From assembly GCA_900317835.1 (NCBI GenBank), contig ONIL01000029.1, forward strand, positions 1 through 51,691: DNA of 51,691 nt, given 5' to 3'. Within the stretch, counting starts at the first letter, position 1; each line of letters begins with the position of its first letter. This document shows positions 6,856 through 34,382 of the stretch, one piece after another. Source of the stretch: an uncultured Prevotellaceae bacterium (GTDB taxonomy: Bacteria > Bacteroidota > Bacteroidia > Bacteroidales > Muribaculaceae). Under the pieces are notes generated by a model. It had not been told where the DNA came from, did not search any database, and saw only the letters and a list, made by a program, of their open reading frames with translations. The position numbers were made by a program, and so were the translations under genes.

Positions 6856-6933
6856 CAGTTTTGGGTCAAGAAGACAAGAAGGACAATTAATAATCCGATT
6901 TGATTGTCTTTTTTGTCTTTTGTCTTCTACGTG

Positions 6934-8541
6934 TTATTTGTTGTCAGGAGTGTCGTTGGACTCGTCCAGGTCGCGACGTTTCCAGCTCTTGCGGCGGCCG
7001 TGGATGATGGGGACTTCCTTGTCGGCACTCAGTGTGGGCTTGCGGTCACGCAGGATGCGCTTGGCAAACGTCTCGGTGTGACGGAATTCCTGGTCAAAGT
7101 CATCGTCGTAGCGGCCAGTCTTGTCGCGGTTATCGACATCAGACATCATGCGGCGGTTGCGGGCGATTGTGGAGCGACGCTGGCGCTCTTCCTCACTGAT
7201 TTCAGGGTCACGTGGTGCAGCCCCACGGCTCGGGCCTGGCTTTGGACGTTCCCGATTATCACGACGGCGGTCTGGACGCTTGTCAGATGAGCCCAATCGG
7301 GTTGCAGAAGACGAGGGGCGGTTGGGCCGCACAATTCCCTGACTGCGTTCACTGGCGCGGAAGTCCTCGTTGTGGATATTCTCACCGCGACCTCGCATGT
7401 CGTTATAGGAGCCGTCAAAGATCACAAACTGCAGCAGCTCGCAATCAAGGCCGCCATTATTGAGTGAATAACGCAACGAGGGCTTCAGTCCTATCTTGAA
7501 GGACTGTTCCTTATCGCTGCAGATGAGCCATGCATTATAGCCCATGAAGGTGTGTTTTAATTTGGTACCCAGGTCGCGGTAGAACTGGTCGATGTCATCC
7601 ATGTTCAGGCGCTCGCCATAGGGCGGGTTTGTAATGAGCGTACCCTTGGGAGGCACAATGGTTATCTCGCGCAAGTCACGGCGCTCAAGCTCGATATACT
7701 TGTTCAAGCCCGCATTCTTGACATTGGCGCGGGCAATAGCGATGGCCTTGCCCTCAATGTCACTGCCATAGATCTTGTGATTGAATTCACGCTCAGCGCT
7801 GTCGTCATTATATATCTTGTTGAACAGTTCCTCGTCATAGTCGGGCCACTGCTGGAAGGCATAGCTGTCGCGATAAACTCCAGGAGCGATGTTGGCGCCG
7901 ATGAGTGCCGCCTCGATCAAGAATGTGCCCGAACCGCACATGGGGTCAACCAAGTCGGTCTTGCCGTCCCAACCGCTGAGCAGGATGATTCCGGCAGCCA
8001 GCACCTCGTTGATGGGAGCGTCGGTCTGTGCCACGCGCCAGCCGCGCTTGAACAGCGGATCACCACTGCTGTCGAGCGACAGGGTCACGTCACGGCCCGA
8101 GATGTGGACATCAAAACGAATTTCGGGATTGGACACGCGAATGCTGGGACGCTGGCCATATTTCTCATTAAAGAAGTCGGCAATGGCATCCTTGACACGA
8201 TAGGTGACAAAACGCGAATTGTTGAAGTTTTCACTATAGACCGTGGCATCAATGGCAAATGTCGTCTTGACCGTCATCAGTTGTTCCCAGTCAAATGTCT
8301 TGAGCTGCTCATAAAGATCATCGGCGCTTGTTGACTTCAAGGTGAGGAACGGCTTGAGCACGCGCACCGCTGTGCGGCAGGCGAAGTTCGTCTTATAGAG
8401 CATTTCCTTGTCACCCTTGAACGAAACTACACGGTTTCCCTCTGTCACATCTTCGGCGCCCAGAGCCCGTAACTCGTCGGCAAGCACCCCTTCCAGTCCG
8501 AGGAAGGTCTTCGCTACCATGTCAAATTTATCGGTCATCAT
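6934..8541 (-). CDS. THUMP-domain 23S rRNA (guanine-N2)-methyltransferase, RlmL-type
   Basis: A 535-residue protein. The N-terminus (MVAKTFLGLEGVLADELRAL) and THUMP region are followed by a class I methyltransferase with the SAM-binding LVDPMCGSGTFLIEAAL and the amino-methylating motif TNPPYGERL. This matches the N-terminal half of E. coli RlmL (m2G2445 of 23S rRNA); the RlmK half is absent. From about residue 395 a long Arg/Asp/Ser-rich disordered tail follows (e.g. SDKRPDRRRDNRERPKPGPS), likely an RNA-binding extension. The start has two adjacent ATGs. The promoter lies 25 bases upstream and is arranged divergently with that of the SlyD gene. Confidence 0.88.
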   Translation of the reverse strand: MMTDKFDMVAKTFLGLEGVLADELRALGAEDVTEGNRVVSFKGDKEMLYKTNFACRTAVRVLKPFLTLKSTSADDLYEQLKTFDWEQLMTVKTTFAIDATVYSENFNNSRFVTYRVKDAIADFFNEKYGQRPSIRVSNPEIRFDVHISGRDVTLSLDSSGDPLFKRGWRVAQTDAPINEVLAAGIILLSGWDGKTDLVDPMCGSGTFLIEAALIGANIAPGVYRDSYAFQQWPDYDEELFNKIYNDDSAEREFNHKIYGSDIEGKAIAIARANVKNAGLNKYIELERRDLREITIVPPKGTLITNPPYGERLNMDDIDQFYRDLGTKLKHTFMGYNAWLICSDKEQSFKIGLKPSLRYSLNNGGLDCELLQFVIFDGSYNDMRGRGENIHNEDFRASERSQGIVRPNRPSSSATRLGSSDKRPDRRRDNRERPKPGPSRGAAPRDPEISEEERQRRSTIARNRRMMSDVDNRDKTGRYDDDFDQEFRHTETFAKRILRDRKPTLSADKEVPIIHGRRKSWKRRDLDESNDTPDNK

Positions 8542-26603: not shown

Positions 26604-27626
26604 TTACAGCGCCTCTACCTCCTGCAGCACTGTAGTATTCAACTGGTCAATCTGAGACATGCTGATGGAATGCAGATAGATTTGGGTTGTCTTGGTGGAC
26701 GCGTGACCCATGCCGTAGCTGATGAGTTCCAAGGGCTGGTTCAGGCTGTCGGCGGCATGAGCCCATGAGTGGCGGGCTACATACATCGTGAGGTTGACGT
26801 CAAGTCCACATTGCGCTGCAACATTCTTGAGGGAGCGGTTCACCTTATTTTGGATACCTCGATACTGGTTGCGCTCCTTACCGTTTGCCGTGTGAATGAT
26901 CGGCAACAGGTAATTCGAACCCGACTCACTGTAGCGGTCAACTATCTCCTGCATGCATTTCTCCCACTTCACGGCAATGCTCTGCCCTGTCTTGTGGCGT
27001 CTGTAGTACAGGCATCCATTCCTGATATTATCGCGCTTGAGATATGCCATATCAACAAACGACATCCCGCGGGTGAAAAAGCTGAACATGAACATGTCGC
27101 GTGCAAATCGCTCATCCTGATTGGCTGGCTCAGCACGCTTAATGGCCTTAATAGTCTCAATGTCGAGGGCACGCTTATCAGTCTTTTCAATACCAGTGAA
27201 AACATGCTTGAACGGTTGCCTGTCGGTGAGGTGGAACTTATGAATTCCCCTGTTATAGCAAGAACGCAACACACGCATGTTAAACGAGATCGTGTTGAGA
27301 GACAAGTTGCGGGATTGGAGATAGGTCTCAAAGTGCTTAATCACATCGGCGGTCACATCATCAAAGGCAAGATCAGCTTCTTCACGATATTGCTTGAATT
27401 GATGCAGGACAGACTTGTGAATCTCAGCAGACCTAGGTCGATTAATGGACAAAAAACGCTGGATTTCATCCTGGATAAATGAGATAAACGACTCCTGCCA
27501 GCGAAGCGGTATTACAGGAGCGTCATCGGGTTCGTTATTGACGGTGCAACCATTGATTTTTAGTACAAATTCATGATTGGACACGTCTATGCCATTGATT
27601 TTCAAATCTAATACAATTCTAGACAT
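26604..27626 (-). CDS. Tyrosine site-specific recombinase, candidate DNA invertase
   Basis: A 340-residue tyrosine recombinase. Residues about 45-140 form the SAM-like core-binding domain; the catalytic domain follows with Arg186 (FFTRGMSFVDMAYL), Lys212 (RRHKTGQ), Arg285 in MYVARHSWAH (Tyr282 where many family members have His, as usual in Bacteroidales), His308 (GMGHASTKTT) and the nucleophile Tyr317 (QIYLHS). No tRNA, excisionase or mobile cargo adjoins it, so it is not obviously an integrase. It lies 3.6 kb from a pair of inverted crossover-like sites (31238-31939). Related Bacteroides enzymes of this type invert promoters of surface-protein genes. That it acts on these sites is inference. 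Confidence 0.9.
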   Translation of the reverse strand: MSRIVLDLKINGIDVSNHEFVLKINGCTVNNEPDDAPVIPLRWQESFISFIQDEIQRFLSINRPRSAEIHKSVLHQFKQYREEADLAFDDVTADVIKHFETYLQSRNLSLNTISFNMRVLRSCYNRGIHKFHLTDRQPFKHVFTGIEKTDKRALDIETIKAIKRAEPANQDERFARDMFMFSFFTRGMSFVDMAYLKRDNIRNGCLYYRRHKTGQSIAVKWEKCMQEIVDRYSESGSNYLLPIIHTANGKERNQYRGIQNKVNRSLKNVAAQCGLDVNLTMYVARHSWAHAADSLNQPLELISYGMGHASTKTTQIYLHSISMSQIDQLNTTVLQEVEAL

Positions 27627-27790
27627 AACACTTATACATTAGATAACGGTGTTATTATAAGCAAGTTTAATGACTATTTCAATCATGTCATTACACCTAT
27701 AATAACGTATTTTTTGTTAAATATTGCCCACTTGAAGCAATAAAAATTAACACAGCGACAGTCTAGCCACCACGGCTTAACTCATCAACT

Positions 27791-27828
27791 AAAAAAGGGG
27801 GCATGTCAAAACATTGACATCCCCCCTT
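27791..27828 (-). terminator. Terminator of the small lipoprotein gene
   Basis: A 14-bp stem with one mismatch (27795-27808 with 27815-27828) followed on the minus strand by six T. Confidence 0.8.
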
Positions 27829-27874
27829 ATTTTATGGCATGGAAAAATTTATCATCCTAACTTCGATAATCAAT

Positions 27875-28216
27875 TCAGCGGCGCTCCAGATTAATAGCCG
27901 GATGGCCTTCTTTCATATCTTCGAGCCGACGATAAAGTTTGCCGTGACTCATGTAGAAATAGGTGGTATCACCATTATACTCAATTGTCACAAATGAAGT
28001 GTCATTGTTGGCTCCATCATGCCAATAGGTTTCATTGATCTTGTCCTGACCGTCAAACTGGATAGTGGCGGTGTGGTCCTCGCGCAACTCAAACTCGTTG
28101 CCGAACTCATCAACATATTTTCCCGTTACAGGTCCCTCGGCGGCACTCTTGCCACATGAGATGACCACAACAGCAAGGCCAGCGATCATTAATGTCTGAA
28201 AAAATCTTTTTGCCAT
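27875..28216 (-). CDS. Small lipoprotein of unknown function
   Basis: A 113-residue lipoprotein starting MAKRFFQTLMIAGLAVVVISC (lipobox VISC), then GKSAAEGPVTGKYVDEFGNE and a beta-rich core TATIQFDGQDKINETYWHDG. The open frame extends 21 codons upstream but through the terminator hairpin of the neighbouring gene, so the internal ATG at 28216 is preferred. It sits between the recombinase and the large surface lipoprotein. No separate promoter is visible, so it may depend on read-through from the phase-variable gene upstream. Confidence 0.65.
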   Translation of the reverse strand: MAKRFFQTLMIAGLAVVVISCGKSAAEGPVTGKYVDEFGNEFELREDHTATIQFDGQDKINETYWHDGANNDTSFVTIEYNGDTTYFYMSHGKLYRRLEDMKEGHPAINLERR

Positions 28217-28230
28217 TTGGTCTTTGGAAT

Positions 28231-28282
28231 AAAAAGGATTAGCACCGCACACATCTTGATGTGAGAGCGACGGTGCCAATCC
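28231..28282 (-). terminator. Terminator of the large surface lipoprotein gene
   Basis: Outer stem 28236-28247 with 28271-28282 (one mismatch) and an inner CACATC/GATGTG stem, followed on the minus strand by CTTTTTATT. Confidence 0.7.
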
Positions 28283-28327: not shown

Positions 28328-31168
28328 TTAGTTTCTCTTTGCACCAGCGGGAGTGATGGTCTTGGTTACAGGGATCGTGATCTTATCGGTCCAGAATGTA
28401 CCCCAACCATAGTTAACCTTAACCTTAACAAAGATATTGAAGTCCTTGTTGACAACAGTACCGTTGTTCTTGTAGGTAATCAGGTCGTAGGGAGAACCAG
28501 CAACCTGGTTGAGCTCGATGGTCGAGGGAACGGGCTTCTCGGCAGTTGAGCCATTAACCTCAAGGTCACAGGTGGCGTTAGCCAGGTCGGCCTCGAAGGA
28601 GAACGGACCATAGTATCCCCAGTAGTTAGGATACTGCGAGAAGTAGCGGGTGCGCCAGTCGTGCAGCACAACCAACTTATCCATTGAGATGTAAGAGCCC
28701 TTCTCACCGAAGTCCACACCGTCGATGAAGCCTTCGCTAGCCAGCGTCTCGGCCTCGATAGGACGGATGTACTTAGCAACATAGTGGTCCTCACCATTGA
28801 AGGTGATGTTCACGGTCTTGGTGTTTGCGCCACCCTTGTTACCGCAGATGTAACCAATAGCCTGGATGTAAACCATGAGATTCTTGGTGTTGAGCATCTC
28901 CTTAGCGATATCGCTCTGCTTGTTCAGGACAATGTGGTTAGCCACGGGCGAATCATTGTTGATGATCGTAGCGATGAGCTCGTTGCCAACATACATCTGG
29001 AGACCATTGCTGGAAATGGTAACGGTCCTGCCGGCAATGCTCTTGTTGTTCATGTGGCTCTTGCAGAAGAAGTACTCAATCTGAGTGATCTTGCTGTCAA
29101 CCTCGATAACGCCCAGATTATTAGTAACGAACGGTGAGTTCAGGTCGTTATCATAAACGCAGTGGTTAGGATTGTTGTCATTGGTTGACTGCGGAACTGC
29201 AACGTTGAAGCGTGCATAGGTCTTAGCAGCATCCCAGTAGTTGCTGATGTACTGAGCGGTAGTCACGTCATAGGACTTCTGAACGGGCTTGATAGTAGCC
29301 TTGAGAACGATCTCAAAGTAGTGCTTGCGATCGCTGGTGTAGTAACGGAACTTGTTGGTAACGGTCTGGCCAGCCAGGTTCCACAGGTCATCGTTCGAGA
29401 TGGTCCACTCGAGCACGTTGGTACCCTCCTCAGTGATACCAGGACCCTCGGCAACGGTACCGACGTCGGTGGGATCAACATAGTCAACGGGGATGGGATA
29501 GAATGAATGGAACTCATCCTTGCTGTAGCCATAAGGAGCGAGAATGTAAAGACTCATGGTCTTGTAGTCATAACCACGAACGCCATTCTTGCCGCACTCA
29601 AATGCGAAGTCGTCAACGGTGATGGTCACTTGAGGATCGTCAATCAGGACACCCTTGCGGGCAATCTTAATCTTAATGTAGGCCACCTTCACAACCTTGT
29701 TGCCGTGCATGAGCAGTACGCGAACGATGGGTGTGCGGTCGATTGCAGACGTGCTGTATTTATCCTTAACCTTGAGGATGGTGTGGTTGTCGTTAACCCA
29801 CTCAACATACTCGGCCTGATCGGTTCCATTGGGGTCACCAACGGTATAGCCGTTCACGAGTTCATACTTGAATTCCATGCCCAGAGCCTGGAGGTCAGCA
29901 ATCTTGTGCGGGCTGAGGAGCTCATGAGCCTCAACATACTTCTCAACGTCGAAAGTCTCATCATAGAGCATCACCAGGTCACAGGTATTGTTGCTCTCAT
30001 CTTTCTCGATAACGGTGTGGTCGTTGATACCAGCCTCGTTGTCGAGCTGAGCCAGGAAGCGACGATAGTGGTAGTCAGTGCCACGGGCAAAGCGATCCTT
30101 GTCGGCAATGCGCAGGTCAACCATGTTCTTCTTGATCACGGTTGCATAGTCACTGGTCACGTTCTCGCCATTCTCCTTGGTGGTCTGCAGGGCAACTACC
30201 GAGATCTTCTCATTGGTAGCGGGCTTGCCAGTCACGTTAACCTCGACCTTGAGGATACCGTCCTTGAAGTCAGCAAACTTAGCGGTAACATTGAAGTCGT
30301 TGCTAGCGGGAGCACGACGGGTTACCATAAAGTCATCGTTGGCTTGAACGACAAAGGTCAAGTTCTTCAGGTCCTCAACGTTGGCGTTGGTGGGGTTAAC
30401 ATGATAGTAAGCATACACCTTGGGTGAGATGAAGATGCTGTCACCGGCCTCGTTATACTTCTCTGAACTGGGCTTATCCTTGTTGCTGACAGTCAGCGCA
30501 CGATAGCCGTAAGAGGCAACGCGGATAGCGGGAACACCATCAACATACAGCTCAGGCTTGAAGACAAAACCACGCAGCGCATTGCTCAAGGCAACGGTAA
30601 CATCGGTATAACCCTCGCCCATCATCACATTGTAGAGCTTGAGGTCACTACCGTCCATCACTGCAGTGATCATGTTGCTGGACGCAGCCTTCCAGGAGAT
30701 GGTCGTGTGCTCCTTGAGAGTGCCGTCACCATTGTAGATGTCCCAGCAACCAGTCTCGGTATTGGGCACATAATAAACACCATTGGTACCATTGGTACCA
30801 TCGGTGCCGTTGATACCGTTTGCACCATCCTTACCAATAGCATAGAACTCGGTCTTCTTGCCGTCCTGATACCAGTAACCATCATCACCGATGGTCCATA
30901 CTACTGCATCTGTACCATTGGTAATGGTGTAAGTGTTACCGTTACTCATCACAACCTCGATGCCATTGGCAACCTTTCTCACTTCCTTGATTACGCTACC
31001 GTCGGTAATCAGATTGTTGAGCTGGTCAATAGCCTTGGCGTTCTTGTCAATCTGCTCTTGCAAGCGTTCGATGTCGTCATCATAGTCCTTGCAAGATGTA
31101 AACATGCTTGTGGCCCCTGCAAAAAGCAAAAGACCCGCAAACAATGAGCTCAAAAAACGTTTACGCAT
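28328..31168 (-). CDS. Large surface lipoprotein with coiled-coil and collagen-like stretch, probably phase variable
   Basis: A 946-residue lipoprotein. The signal peptide ends at Cys26 (SMFTSC), followed by KDYDDDIERL, an acidic export-type sequence that places Bacteroidales lipoproteins on the cell surface. Residues 30-56 form a short coiled coil of the PL29 N-terminal/DUF4988 type; residues 112-130 are seven Gly-X-Y triplets (GKDGANGINGTDGTNGTNG). The remaining 800 residues are beta-rich repeats without enzyme motifs. The organisation recalls the phase-variable S-layer lipoprotein BT1927 of B. thetaiotaomicron, but homology was not tested. Its promoter lies inside the invertible segment immediately upstream, currently facing this gene. 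Confidence 0.8.
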   Translation of the reverse strand: MRKRFLSSLFAGLLLFAGATSMFTSCKDYDDDIERLQEQIDKNAKAIDQLNNLITDGSVIKEVRKVANGIEVVMSNGNTYTITNGTDAVVWTIGDDGYWYQDGKKTEFYAIGKDGANGINGTDGTNGTNGVYYVPNTETGCWDIYNGDGTLKEHTTISWKAASSNMITAVMDGSDLKLYNVMMGEGYTDVTVALSNALRGFVFKPELYVDGVPAIRVASYGYRALTVSNKDKPSSEKYNEAGDSIFISPKVYAYYHVNPTNANVEDLKNLTFVVQANDDFMVTRRAPASNDFNVTAKFADFKDGILKVEVNVTGKPATNEKISVVALQTTKENGENVTSDYATVIKKNMVDLRIADKDRFARGTDYHYRRFLAQLDNEAGINDHTVIEKDESNNTCDLVMLYDETFDVEKYVEAHELLSPHKIADLQALGMEFKYELVNGYTVGDPNGTDQAEYVEWVNDNHTILKVKDKYSTSAIDRTPIVRVLLMHGNKVVKVAYIKIKIARKGVLIDDPQVTITVDDFAFECGKNGVRGYDYKTMSLYILAPYGYSKDEFHSFYPIPVDYVDPTDVGTVAEGPGITEEGTNVLEWTISNDDLWNLAGQTVTNKFRYYTSDRKHYFEIVLKATIKPVQKSYDVTTAQYISNYWDAAKTYARFNVAVPQSTNDNNPNHCVYDNDLNSPFVTNNLGVIEVDSKITQIEYFFCKSHMNNKSIAGRTVTISSNGLQMYVGNELIATIINNDSPVANHIVLNKQSDIAKEMLNTKNLMVYIQAIGYICGNKGGANTKTVNITFNGEDHYVAKYIRPIEAETLASEGFIDGVDFGEKGSYISMDKLVVLHDWRTRYFSQYPNYWGYYGPFSFEADLANATCDLEVNGSTAEKPVPSTIELNQVAGSPYDLITYKNNGTVVNKDFNIFVKVKVNYGWGTFWTDKITIPVTKTITPAGAKRN

Positions 31169-31237: not shown

Positions 31238-31262
31238 TGTAACTCTTGCGGAGAGTTACAAA
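31238..31262. repeat. Left inverted repeat (IR1) of invertible segment
   Basis: 25 bases whose exact reverse complement occurs at 31915-31939. The site is TGTAACTCT, spacer TGCGG, AGAGTTACA, then AA: two perfect 9-bp inverted arms around an asymmetric 5-bp spacer, the layout of a recombinase crossover site. In the lipoprotein mRNA it would form a hairpin in the leader. Confidence 0.9.
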
Positions 31263-31269
31263 TTGCGTG

Positions 31270-31301
31270 CAAATGTACATATAATAAAATTAACAAGCAA
31301 A
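31270..31301 (-). promoter_or_regulatory. Invertible promoter reading into the large surface lipoprotein gene
   Basis: On the minus strand TTTG (31298-31301), exactly 20 bases, TACATTTG (31270-31277) followed by C: a full match to the Bacteroidota consensus. The -7 element ends eight bases from the left inverted repeat, so the transcript begins at or next to the repeat and the leader is about 95 bases. Confidence 0.8.
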
Positions 31302-31368
31302 TAAAAAAGCCAAATTTTGAAAATATAGATAAAAATTCGAAACTTCATTTTATTATGCTTTTTACATG

Positions 31369-31785
31369 TTATGAATTTGATCGACCAATGACATTCCCTT
31401 TCACATAGACTCGAATGAACTGATAGGGACAAGCATTGGTTTTGAGCACAGCTGCCTGGCTGAATTGTCCAAGATTAAGATGTGGATCGTAGGTAACAGT
31501 CATCGTCAGCGTGTCACCCGGCTGCACGACATCTTGTGAATAGGTCACCTGAGTGCAGGGACACGTCGTTGATCCTGTGAGAATTAACAGCGGAATGTCG
31601 CCCTCGCTTTTAATGGCAAAAGTGCACTTTGCCGCTCCTGCGTCTTGCTCGATATCTCCAAAATCAAAAACCGCTTCACCGATAATCTCATATCTGGCAC
31701 ATGAGTCAGCAGTGTAATGACCATCATCGGCCATCACACTGCACCATGTAGTAAATAAGATGACGATAAAACAGATAAATCTCAT
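31369..31785 (-). CDS. DUF1573 domain exported protein inside the invertible segment
   Basis: A 138-residue protein with a signal peptide (MRFICFIVILFTTWCSVMA). The body is a single DUF1573 domain: FDFGDIEQDAGAAKCTFAIK, PLLILTGSTTCPCTQVTYSQ, QPGDTLTMTVTYDPHLNLGQ, AVLKTNACPYQFIRVYVKGN. DUF1573 is an immunoglobulin-like (ASH-related) fold common in secreted Bacteroidota proteins; its role is unknown. It lies wholly between the inverted repeats, so inversion would turn the whole gene round. No terminator separates it from the outward promoter, so in the present orientation it could be co-transcribed with the surface lipoprotein. Confidence 0.85.
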   Translation of the reverse strand: MRFICFIVILFTTWCSVMADDGHYTADSCARYEIIGEAVFDFGDIEQDAGAAKCTFAIKSEGDIPLLILTGSTTCPCTQVTYSQDVVQPGDTLTMTVTYDPHLNLGQFSQAAVLKTNACPYQFIRVYVKGNVIGRSNS

Positions 31786-31819
31786 AAAATTATGATTCGC
31801 TATTGTGCTTAGTTTAGTG

Positions 31820-31827
31820 CAAAATTA
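31820..31827 (-). promoter_or_regulatory. Promoter -7 element of the DUF1573 gene
   Basis: TAATTTTG followed by C on the minus strand, 34 bases before the start at 31785; no good -33 element. It is inside the invertible segment and would turn with its gene. Confidence 0.5.
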
Positions 31828-31914
31828 ATAAAAATAATGAATTGATTAGCGTACCTTTTTCATATTCAAGAACGGCATAATCATGTAAACTTCTGATAAT
31901 TAATCAAATACCGT

Positions 31915-31939
31915 TTTGTAACTCTCCGCAAGAGTTACA
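31915..31939. repeat. Right inverted repeat (IR2) of invertible segment
   Basis: Exact reverse complement of 31238-31262, with the spacer reading CCGCA between arms TGTAACTCT and AGAGTTACA. The spacer orientation is what makes recombination between the two sites an inversion and not a deletion. Confidence 0.9.
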
Positions 31940-32090
31940 TTTTTTATAATCATTTAACGATAGTATCGATTTTTTAACGCTTTTTCTTCACGTATTATTT
32001 TCCCAAAAAAGCATCATTTATACGCTTTAGTGGCTCACTGATCCTGTGAAAAACGTCATGGTCATCAATGCTCGTTGCAGAAATTAATTG

Positions 32091-32098: not shown

Positions 32099-32128
32099 TG
32101 ACTTGAATTTTTAATATTGATCCTGAAC

Positions 32129-32830
32129 ATGATTGGAACGATTGTCAATACCTGCACCATAGTGGTGGGGACGCTGGTGGGCGTCGCACTCAACAAGGGC
32201 ATCAAGACCCGCTACAAGACGATACTGAATAATGCGCTGGGACTGGCATGCTTTGGCATCGGCCTCAATGCGGTGGTGACCAACCTGCCCAAGAGCCAGT
32301 ATCCCGTGCTGTTTGTCGCGGCAATGGCAATAGGCAGCGTGGTTGGGGTAGCCCTCGACATCAATGGACGCATCAAGCGCTACATCAACGACAAGAGCAA
32401 CACGATGAAAAAAGGGCAGTCCCACAACCTTGCCGACGGTGTGACCACCGCCAGTCTGGTCTATTGCATCGGGCCGCTGTCGATGCTCGGGCCTGTCATC
32501 AGTGCACTGCAGGGCGACAACACCTTCCTATTCACCAATGCGACCCTCGACTTGGTCACCGCAACCATCTTTGGCTCGACCTACGGCATCGGCATGCTTC
32601 TGGCGGCGCCTGTATTGTTCCTGTGGCAAGGCATGTTTTACTGCATCGCCTTGATGTCGAGCGCCGCAGTAAGCGAGGCCTTGATGGCCGAACTGCTCAT
32701 TGTCGGCGGCTTGCTCATCACAGCCTCGGGCTTGTCGCTCCTTCGCATCCGCGACTGCCAGGTGCTCAACATGTTGCCGGCATTGCTCGTGCCACCGCTG
32801 TGGTTCCTGTTGATGTGGCTGATTGGCTAA
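32129..32830 (+). CDS. DUF554 family membrane protein
   Basis: A 233-residue polytopic protein starting at the ATG at 32129 (MIGTIVNTCTIVVGTLVG); an in-frame TTG four codons upstream is less likely. Repeated glycine-rich helices (LGLACFGIGLNAVV, AAMAIGSVVGVALDINGRI, VTTASLVYCIGPLSMLGPVI, TATIFGSTYGIGMLLAAPVL) identify the DUF554/YdfK family, thought to be transporters but of unknown substrate. It is the first gene to the right of the invertible segment, reading away from it. Confidence 0.9.
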   Translation: MIGTIVNTCTIVVGTLVGVALNKGIKTRYKTILNNALGLACFGIGLNAVVTNLPKSQYPVLFVAAMAIGSVVGVALDINGRIKRYINDKSNTMKKGQSHNLADGVTTASLVYCIGPLSMLGPVISALQGDNTFLFTNATLDLVTATIFGSTYGIGMLLAAPVLFLWQGMFYCIALMSSAAVSEALMAELLIVGGLLITASGLSLLRIRDCQVLNMLPALLVPPLWFLLMWLIG

Positions 32831-32877
32831 TCTGCGCCATTGCACCCGTTATTCGAGGTGTTTTAAATCTTTTTGAG

Positions 32878-32885
32878 TAATTTTG
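32878..32885 (+). promoter_or_regulatory. Promoter -7 element of the phospholipase gene
   Basis: TAATTTTG, 26 bases before the ATG at 32912. Confidence 0.5.
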
Positions 32886-32911
32886 TAGTCTGTAACAATA
32901 CCATTAAATTG

Positions 32912-33760
32912 ATGAGCATGATTCACCGTCTTTTGATATTCTTGATTCTGCTGGCAGGGATCAACATTCATGCAGTAGGACAAATTGTTAACAATGAGAA
33001 GGCTGACCGGCAATTTGCCGACAGCATCCGTGCCGAACTCGACAACAGGCCTTACTTCAGCCTCTACAAGGACACTTACTTTATTGGCGGCACCGTGCTA
33101 GGTGGCACCCCTGACGCTTATAACAGTGACGTGAAATTTCAGATCAGCTTCCAGCAGCGCCTGACCAAGAGTGTGCTCCCCGGACACACCTACCTGTACC
33201 TGTTCTATACACAAAAAGCCATCTGGCACGTCTTCAGGAACTCGTTGCCTTTTCATGACCTGAACTTCAATCCAGGTATCGGTCTGTCCAAGTACATCAT
33301 CATGAAAAACAAACTGGTGAGCAAGGCCACATTGATGCTGGAGCACGAGTCCAACGGCAAGGACGGCATCATGTCACGCAGTTGGAACAAAATCTCGATT
33401 GCTGGTGAGGCCTACATCTCCCCCAATCTCATGGCACATGCCAAGTACTGGATACCCATCGTTGACGGGAAATACAATAAGGACATCCTGGATTACAGTG
33501 GCATTTATCAGGCTGGCTTCCAGGCCGTCAGCAACGACAACAAGTGGGTGCTCGACATGACACTGGTCAAGCGCCAAGGCTGGAAACTCAACTTCAACAC
33601 CATTGTGCAACTGGGCTACCGCATCAACCACAATTCCAACCAATTCATCATGCTGCAGTATTACAACGGATATGGTGAGTGCATGATGGACTACAAGCAG
33701 TACCACTCGCGCCTGCGCATCGGACTGCTTATCCGTCCACGCTTCTTCAGCGACTTTTAG
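32912..33760 (+). CDS. pldA: Outer-membrane phospholipase A
   Basis: A 282-residue protein with a signal peptide (MSMIHRLLIFLILLAGINIHAVG). The catalytic triad of OMPLA is readable with the E. coli spacing: His145 and Ser147 in LEHESNG and Asn159 in SRSWNKI. The rest alternates as a 12-stranded barrel and ends in Phe (RPRFFSDF). It hydrolyses phospholipids that reach the outer leaflet of the outer membrane. The start could also be the ATG at 32918. It follows the DUF554 gene by 81 bases and has its own promoter. Confidence 0.92.
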   Translation: MSMIHRLLIFLILLAGINIHAVGQIVNNEKADRQFADSIRAELDNRPYFSLYKDTYFIGGTVLGGTPDAYNSDVKFQISFQQRLTKSVLPGHTYLYLFYTQKAIWHVFRNSLPFHDLNFNPGIGLSKYIIMKNKLVSKATLMLEHESNGKDGIMSRSWNKISIAGEAYISPNLMAHAKYWIPIVDGKYNKDILDYSGIYQAGFQAVSNDNKWVLDMTLVKRQGWKLNFNTIVQLGYRINHNSNQFIMLQYYNGYGECMMDYKQYHSRLRIGLLIRPRFFSDF

Positions 33761-33819: not shown

Positions 33820-33848
33820 CGACAATCGTGAATTTAACTTCTAGAATT

Positions 33849-34382
33849 ATGCATTACTGGATTAACCATAATGGAGTGCAGTCGGGTCCGGTGGACCTCG
33901 ACGGCATCAAGGAATTGCACCTCACATCGGCTGCCTATGTGTGGCATGAGGGACTACCCGATTGGGTAAAAATTACCCAACTGCCCGAGTTGCAGGGAAC
34001 ATATGAAGTGGTCGGCGAGCCTATCGTCGCTGCATCCAAGCCACAAGGCGGCGCCGTGACGGGGCAACCCTACCAGCAACAGCCATCCATGCCCCAGCAG
34101 CAGTATGCCAATGACCTGGAGCCGGCTCAAACCGAGCCGTGCCCTCCCACCAACTTGGTATGGGCCATCATCTCGACCGTGTTGTGCTGCCTGCCCGTCG
34201 GCATCGTGGCCATCATCTACGCCCTCAAGGTGACCAACAAGTACCGCGAGGGTGATATCGAGGGCGCCAAGCGTGCCAGCGAGACAGGTGCCTGGTGGTG
34301 CATCGCATCGATTGTACTGGGCATCATCTTCTGCCAGCCCATGCTGTCGATGCTTCCCGAGCTCATGGGATCGGGTATGTGA
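33849..34382 (+). CDS. GYF_2 and CD225/dispanin domain membrane protein
   Basis: A 177-residue protein. Residues 1-50 are a GYF_2 (DUF4339) domain (MHYWINHNGVQSGPVDLDGI, YVWHEGLPDWVKI), then a Gln/Pro linker, then a CD225/dispanin module with two membrane helices (NLVWAIISTVLCCLPVGIVA and WWCIASIVLGIIF) around YALKVTNKYREGDIEGAKRA. Such proteins are widespread in Bacteroidota with unknown function. It is followed after 12 bases by a DUF2752 gene, a common pairing. Confidence 0.88.
   Translation: MHYWINHNGVQSGPVDLDGIKELHLTSAAYVWHEGLPDWVKITQLPELQGTYEVVGEPIVAASKPQGGAVTGQPYQQQPSMPQQQYANDLEPAQTEPCPPTNLVWAIISTVLCCLPVGIVAIIYALKVTNKYREGDIEGAKRASETGAWWCIASIVLGIIFCQPMLSMLPELMGSGM

Follow-up and report, generated by a model that had tools for sequence, protein, structure and literature searches.

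A probable phase-variation switch in uncultured Bacteroidales: a gene-carrying invertible promoter segment upstream of a lipoprotein gene

What is the role of two perfect inverted repeats that lie just upstream of a large lipoprotein gene in an uncultured member of the Bacteroidales? The repeats are found in a stretch of 51,691 nucleotides (contig ONIL01000029.1 of assembly GCA_900317835.1), here called the window, and an earlier note made from its letters had taken them for the borders of an invertible segment. Our answer, to which we assign a probability of roughly 0.93, is that the locus is a phase-variation switch, in which a recombinase inverts the segment and so turns a promoter ON or OFF for the lipoprotein gene. 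The features are collected in Table 1, and include several that the earlier note had not mentioned: the recombinase gene, the outward promoter, the DUF1573 gene inside the segment and the site's possible function as a terminator.

Table 1 Features of the switch locus, given as positions in the window.
Feature	Position	Strand	Remarks
Tyrosine recombinase gene	26604..27626	-	340 aa; PF13102 and PF00589; R186, K212, R285, H308, Y317
Strong hairpin with T-run, probable terminator	27788..27836	-	Separates the lipoprotein unit from the recombinase gene; -25.4 kcal/mol, z -6.6
Small lipoprotein gene downstream	27875..28216	-	Likely ATG at 28216; listed open reading frame starts at 28279 with TTG
Switched gene, 946-aa lipoprotein	28328..31168	-	SCKDYDDD, coiled coil, DUF4988 (PF16378), collagen-like stretch, beta-rich remainder
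Left (gene-proximal) recombination site	31238..31262	+	23-bp palindromic core 31238-31260, spacer TGCGG
Invertible segment	31263..31914		Aligns inverted relative to both flanks in L049
Predicted promoter TTTG-N20-TACATTTG	31270..31301	-	Points out at the lipoprotein gene (putative ON state)
DUF1573 (PF07610) gene inside the segment	31369..31785	-	138 aa, signal-peptide-like N terminus
Right (distal) recombination site	31915..31939	+	Core 31917-31939, spacer CCGCA
T-run directly after the right site	31940..31945	+	With the site palindrome, a possible terminator for the promoter in the OFF orientation

The description of the repeats in the earlier note proved accurate, as the two 25-nt arms are 100% complementary with 652 nt between them, and both have the internal form TGTAACTCT-N5-AGAGTTACA around the asymmetric 5-bp spacers TGCGG and CCGCA. 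Its judgement that chance is a very unlikely source was also borne out. With up to three mismatches allowed, the palindrome pattern was found twice in the window against 0.01 expected from shuffled windows, and the longest perfect inverted repeat within 10 kb reached at most 18 nt in 20 dinucleotide shuffles of the window; the next-longest in the real window after the 25-nt pair is 15 nt at the same range. Throughout the 3.07-Mb assembly the exact pattern occurs only at the two window sites, and a tolerance of up to three mismatches adds one extra place. The repeats are real and far beyond chance, and they are most probably the sites of an invertible promoter.

An exact scan of an 84,980-species genome collection returned 13 stretches, of which 11 are on nine Bacteroidales contigs (five with titles that name the ruminant stomach) and two are unpaired matches in other phyla (L005 and L007), which were left out of the counts. 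The exact pattern is present in 8 of the 101 genomes of the window's genus. A looser pattern was run over 397 genomes of the family, which include part of the genus only, and matched 16 genomes, with new pairs in G080 and G084. These 16 comprise the 10 genus genomes counted in the following and six of other genera that were left out, namely five with a single match (G129, G210, G256, G357 and G402) and G212 (L048), where a GTAACTC-like palindrome pair about 164 bp apart (6871-7055) was observed but no recombinase match. In each of the 10 genus genomes, the window's own included, the site pair adjoins the same lipoprotein gene, and two nearly identical, hence not independent, Prevotella loci (L071 and L072) and one genome of family f59 bring the number of pairs to 13. 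The 7-bp centres of the two sites are mutually reverse complementary in each of the 13 pairs, though seven different centres occur across the loci. Since the strand-exchange regions of recombination partners must match, matched centres are what site-specific recombination predicts. The arms can change as well: in G798 those of both sites have changed together to TGTATCTCT, and one site has diverged in two of the 10 genus genomes, by two arm bases in G063 and by one in G018.

Comparison of the locus elsewhere, a check that the earlier note had proposed, revealed the segment in both orientations. The DUF1573 gene is on the lipoprotein strand in five of the 10 genus genomes and on the opposite strand in the other five, corresponding to five ON and five OFF arrangements, all of them read from draft assemblies in which misjoins could hide. 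The nearest relative, L049, has a 94% identical lipoprotein, and its two flanks are collinear with those of the window while the segment between them is inverted (bases 2-583 of 652, i.e. 582 query bases, aligned at 76.7% identity). On the lipoprotein tree the orientation needs five changes, the maximum possible for five plus five, and the sister pairs window/L049, L047/L050 and L051/L054 each differ in orientation. The proposal of an invertible segment upstream of the lipoprotein gene is therefore supported by both orientations between species, and we infer that flipping continues within a population.

The promoter consensus of Bacteroidales is given as TTTG/TAnnTTTG in the accessible parts of PMC7366714 and PMC8748976. 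Motifs of this form occur four times in the 51.7 kb of the window, counting both strands, and the one inside the segment lies 9 bp from the 23-bp core of the left site (10 bp if a 21-bp core is used). All 10 genus loci have TTTG-N19/20-TAnnTTTG at one segment end only and pointing outward; the distance to the site is 10-11 bp in nine of these promoter-flip loci, the exception being L046 with 19 bp and N19. Inverted repeats around an outward-facing promoter of the Bacteroidales type, with a gene beside it, place the locus among the invertible promoters (invertons) of this order, and the presence of both orientations between species agrees with that assignment. Read along the minus strand, the DUF1573 gene is followed by the promoter, the left site, 69 nt and the ATG of the large lipoprotein gene, and beyond that gene by the small lipoprotein gene, the T-run hairpin and the recombinase gene. 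The window would accordingly be in the ON state, with the predicted promoter, some 10 bp inward of the left site, facing the lipoprotein gene across that site. The DUF1573 reading frame is intact in all 10 segments and is preceded by a -7-like box in seven of them, in L053 just 13 nt ahead of the ATG. Literature searches for DUF1573 with inversion and for DUF4988 with phase variation each returned the same single paper, a work on iron response.

The gene for the putative inverting enzyme is found 3.6 kb from the segment. The product matches the PF00589 profile and has R186, K212, R285, H308 and Y317, which we take to be the catalytic residues of a tyrosine recombinase, the usual position of the HxxR histidine being Y282. 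Among 53 homologues (13 of the genus, two of Prevotella and 38 further matches of a search over the order, in which 28 of 393 genomes had a match), K212, R285, H308 and Y317 are invariant and R186 is present in 50. Matches with E up to 1e-50 were obtained in 13 of the 101 genus genomes, in 10/10 with a site pair as against 3/91 without (Fisher p 1.5e-11, with kinship ignored). A recombinase search of 13 genomes gave 12 with a match, 10 of them on the site contig; in G017 and G036 the match is on a different contig from the sites. A site of the form [AT]CTCT-N5-AGAG[AT] follows the stop codon within 300 bp in 20 of the 53 homologues, against a shuffled rate of 0.00075 per locus; this includes 5 of 13 homologues in lipoprotein cassettes and 15 of 40 outside them, and the remaining 33 have no site of the tested form within that distance. 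Pairs with complementary spacers occur within 600 bp of 10 of the 53. The recombinase encoded 3.6 kb away is presumably the enzyme that acts on the two sites of the window.

The recombinase tree has a branch (SH-aLRT 96) with all the cassette enzymes on the same side, along with those of G738 and G034; the G034 match (L068) has one internal stop, and neither lipoprotein nor site pair was found in the 18 kb fetched there. G040 and G099 are genus genomes in which a recombinase match was obtained but no site pair. Their contigs stop precisely at the outer base of a 23-bp site next to the recombinase gene, as would be expected of an assembler that meets both orientations. This is circumstantial, and because the two recombinases are outside the cassette branch, the contig ends bear on the enzyme family and not on this cassette. 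Contig ends exactly at, or within one base of, a site-like palindrome beside the recombinase gene were noted in L069 (at its end) and in L070 and L079 (at their start), as expected with both orientations in the sampled population. Separately, short pairs resembling invertible promoters, with 141-163 bp between the sites, were seen shortly after recombinase homologues in several Bacteroidales families (L082, L083, L089, L090, L094, L095, L101, L103, L105 and L107).

In the mechanism that we propose, the tyrosine recombinase would recognise both palindromic sites and invert the DNA between them, carrying the DUF1573 gene along. In the orientation of the window (ON), the promoter at the left end of the segment would drive transcription over the left site and on into the large lipoprotein gene. 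After inversion (OFF) the promoter would face away, the remaining 69 nt between site and gene contain no -7 box, and lipoprotein expression would be expected to follow the orientation of the segment. The OFF transcript would begin just before the distal site, where the palindrome and the six T could form a short intrinsic terminator and silence the promoter at once. With a transcription start placed a few bases before the site on account of the -7 box, such a transcript would amount to a stub of some 30 nt.

Could the flipped promoter instead be meant for a second target, the DUF554 gene (32117-32830) beyond the distal site? In the window, L046 and L049 this gene is close to the distal site and points away from it, but in L047, L050 and L052 the distance is 1.2 to 2.1 kb, and no copy was found in the DNA fetched for L045, L051, L053 and L054. 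Moreover, a T-run right at the distal site in eight of the 10 promoter-flip loci would stop transcripts heading for it, and we regard a switch with two targets as unlikely.

The T-run also touches on the claim of the earlier note that the repeats have the form of a recombination site and not of a terminator. The first half of that claim stands, but the second holds only in part, since the right palindrome is directly followed by TTTTTT on the plus strand. At least five T within 10 nt after the 23-bp palindrome were found in the OFF direction in 11 of the 13 loci (the exceptions being L051 and L054) and in the ON direction in none, and further out in the OFF-side flanks 54 of 2900 ten-base windows have a comparable T-run. 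The 9-bp stem of the site folds at -9.3 kcal/mol. A terminator pattern scan of the region also called the right site; it found five terminator-like sites against 4.9 expected, so that this call proves nothing alone, and the hairpin at 27788..27836 was absent from its list. In the 10 short recombinase-adjacent pairs described above, from which the cassette locus L053 was left out, at least five T within 10 nt were seen on the recombinase side in four and on the other side in none, and in none of those four does the run start at the first base; the tight pattern therefore looks specific to the lipoprotein cassette. From these sequence patterns the site palindrome may have a second function in the OFF state, as the stem of a terminator. 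The fuller proposal is that the palindrome bound by the recombinase is at the same time the stem of a promoter-proximal intrinsic terminator with a U-tract at one junction only, that inversion would exchange promoter-to-gene for promoter-to-terminator and give a tight OFF state, and that this logic is kept in two mirror topologies (see below) and in the window's genus, Prevotella and a third family; we consider the odds on it to be even. If true, a single element combines two ways of switching, promoter inversion and terminator formation, and there is a suggestion of how read-through into adjacent genes is avoided in OFF cells.

The same T-run and the same stem might be taken to mean that both palindromes are merely terminators or hairpins that bracket the DUF1573 gene in an immobile segment, and the pattern scan did list the right one. 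A terminator, however, needs no match between centres, and these are complementary in 13 of 13 loci though they differ from locus to locus; the gene side has no run of at least five T within 10 nt in any of the 13; and the segment occurs both ways round between fixed flanks, making an immobile segment very improbable. Least probable of all is a mobile element bounded by terminal inverted repeats (MITE-like, or with DUF1573 as passenger) inserted beside the lipoprotein gene, where exact repeats around a cargo gene would fit but are internally palindromic with locus-specific matched centres, where neither several copies (it is single in the assembly) nor varied insertion places (it is beside the same gene in 10 genomes) were found, where promoter and recombinase accompany the segment, and where sites of this kind have other DNA between them in the Prevotella loci.

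Returning to the recombinase-driven switch, two topologies can be distinguished. In the first, seen in the 10 genus genomes, the promoter inside the segment turns and the lipoprotein gene is fixed. The second is that of the Prevotella genomes G414 and G415 and of G798. The sites enclose the lipoprotein and recombinase genes, with distances of 5.1, 5.7 and 6.9 kb between the starts of their cores, and a TTTG-N20-TAnnTTTG promoter faces inward from a position 10-11 bp beyond the far site. Here the gene would turn while the promoter is fixed. All three genomes are in the OFF arrangement; this may not hold for the two Prevotella loci (L071 and L072), because both have another promoter-like motif between site and gene. 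It was also observed that the lipoprotein of L071 and L072 groups with that of G063 (L045) of the window's genus with support 98/98, which hints at cassette transfer between the groups.

The switched protein is probably located at the cell surface, judging from the acidic residues after its lipidated cysteine (...SCKDYDDD). These resemble the K-(D/E)2 signal for surface export reported in the accessible part of PMC12632263. The predicted model shows a coiled coil and, after it, beta-rich parts (mean pLDDT 74, pTM 0.46) and is usable for the general shape alone. A fold search gave generic matches to tandem beta-domains (cadherins, an S-layer protein) with a TM-score of at most 0.19 relative to the query among the 50 matches listed, and comparison of the sequence with solved structures gave no match up to E 0.1. 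The small lipoprotein gene is present in 11 of the 13 loci; it is absent in L078, and the contig of L054 ends inside the large gene. A feedback by co-transcription from the promoter through the lipoprotein genes into the recombinase gene was considered and set aside, as the T-run hairpin separates the small lipoprotein gene from the recombinase gene.

How does the cassette compare with known switches? The Salmonella Hin segment is also invertible, contains a gene and has at one end a promoter that points outward, but Hin is a serine recombinase and is itself that gene, whereas the gene inside the present segment is DUF1573. Invertible promoters served by tyrosine recombinases are reportedly the subject of work by Weinacht from 2004. 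The cassette belongs among the known Bacteroidales invertible promoters, and what may be new is the gene-carrying segment, the two topologies and a site that may serve as OFF terminator. Tsr19/BF2766 of Bacteroides fragilis, as far as the accessible text of PMC4747536 goes, is a tyrosine-recombinase invertible promoter, and in that species transcription is reported to be inversely related to how many repeats lie between promoter and genes. That type shares with the present one the nearby tyrosine recombinase, the inverted repeats, the Bacteroidales -7 promoter and the control of surface molecules. It differs, on the same partial text, in that a whole gene rides in the present segment, whose OFF exit is marked by a T-run, and in that the recombinase gene here is behind the switched gene in most loci. 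The invertible promoters of PMC8748976 likewise have a TTTG/TAnnTTTG promoter between inverted repeats and an adjacent invertase; according to the accessible part of that survey, regions containing or overlapping coding sequences were removed, so a gene-carrying segment of this kind would have been dropped. In cwpV of Clostridioides difficile an intrinsic terminator in the OFF orientation has been proposed at the junction of repeat and inverted region (PMC2784873, accessible portion), similar to the terminator proposed here from sequence. The cwpV promoter, by the same portion, is outside and does not turn, as is also the case in L071, L072 and L078 but not in the window and nine others; that system is from another phylum, and in the present one promoter inversion and terminator would act together. 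No description of a cassette of this kind was found in the titles and abstract openings of the literature searched, in which few subscription journals were within reach. For uncultured Bacteroidales the locus contributes a complete and testable phase-variation cassette of recombinase, sites, promoter and lipoprotein, of a kind that at least one published invertible-promoter filter removes because a gene lies in the segment.

Two observations lie outside the switch itself. In G738 (C1:1955334-1990619; L077, L115 and L116), a recombinase of the same branch is near 15 palindromic sites, eight in one orientation and seven in the other, and each about 21 bp before a lipoprotein gene. Two of these genes that were scanned match fimbrillin-like and ALK/LTK glycine-rich domains, and FimA- and Mfa2-like genes are close by; the locus is probably a large array for shuffling tip pilins. 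With a recombinase of the same clade beside a 15-site fimbrial array in another family, a single type of enzyme may work on simple switches as well as on large shuffling arrays. Finally, in the window itself, positions 33828-34382 encode a GYF_2 and CD225-like membrane protein, adjoining a phospholipase A1-like gene (32873-33760).
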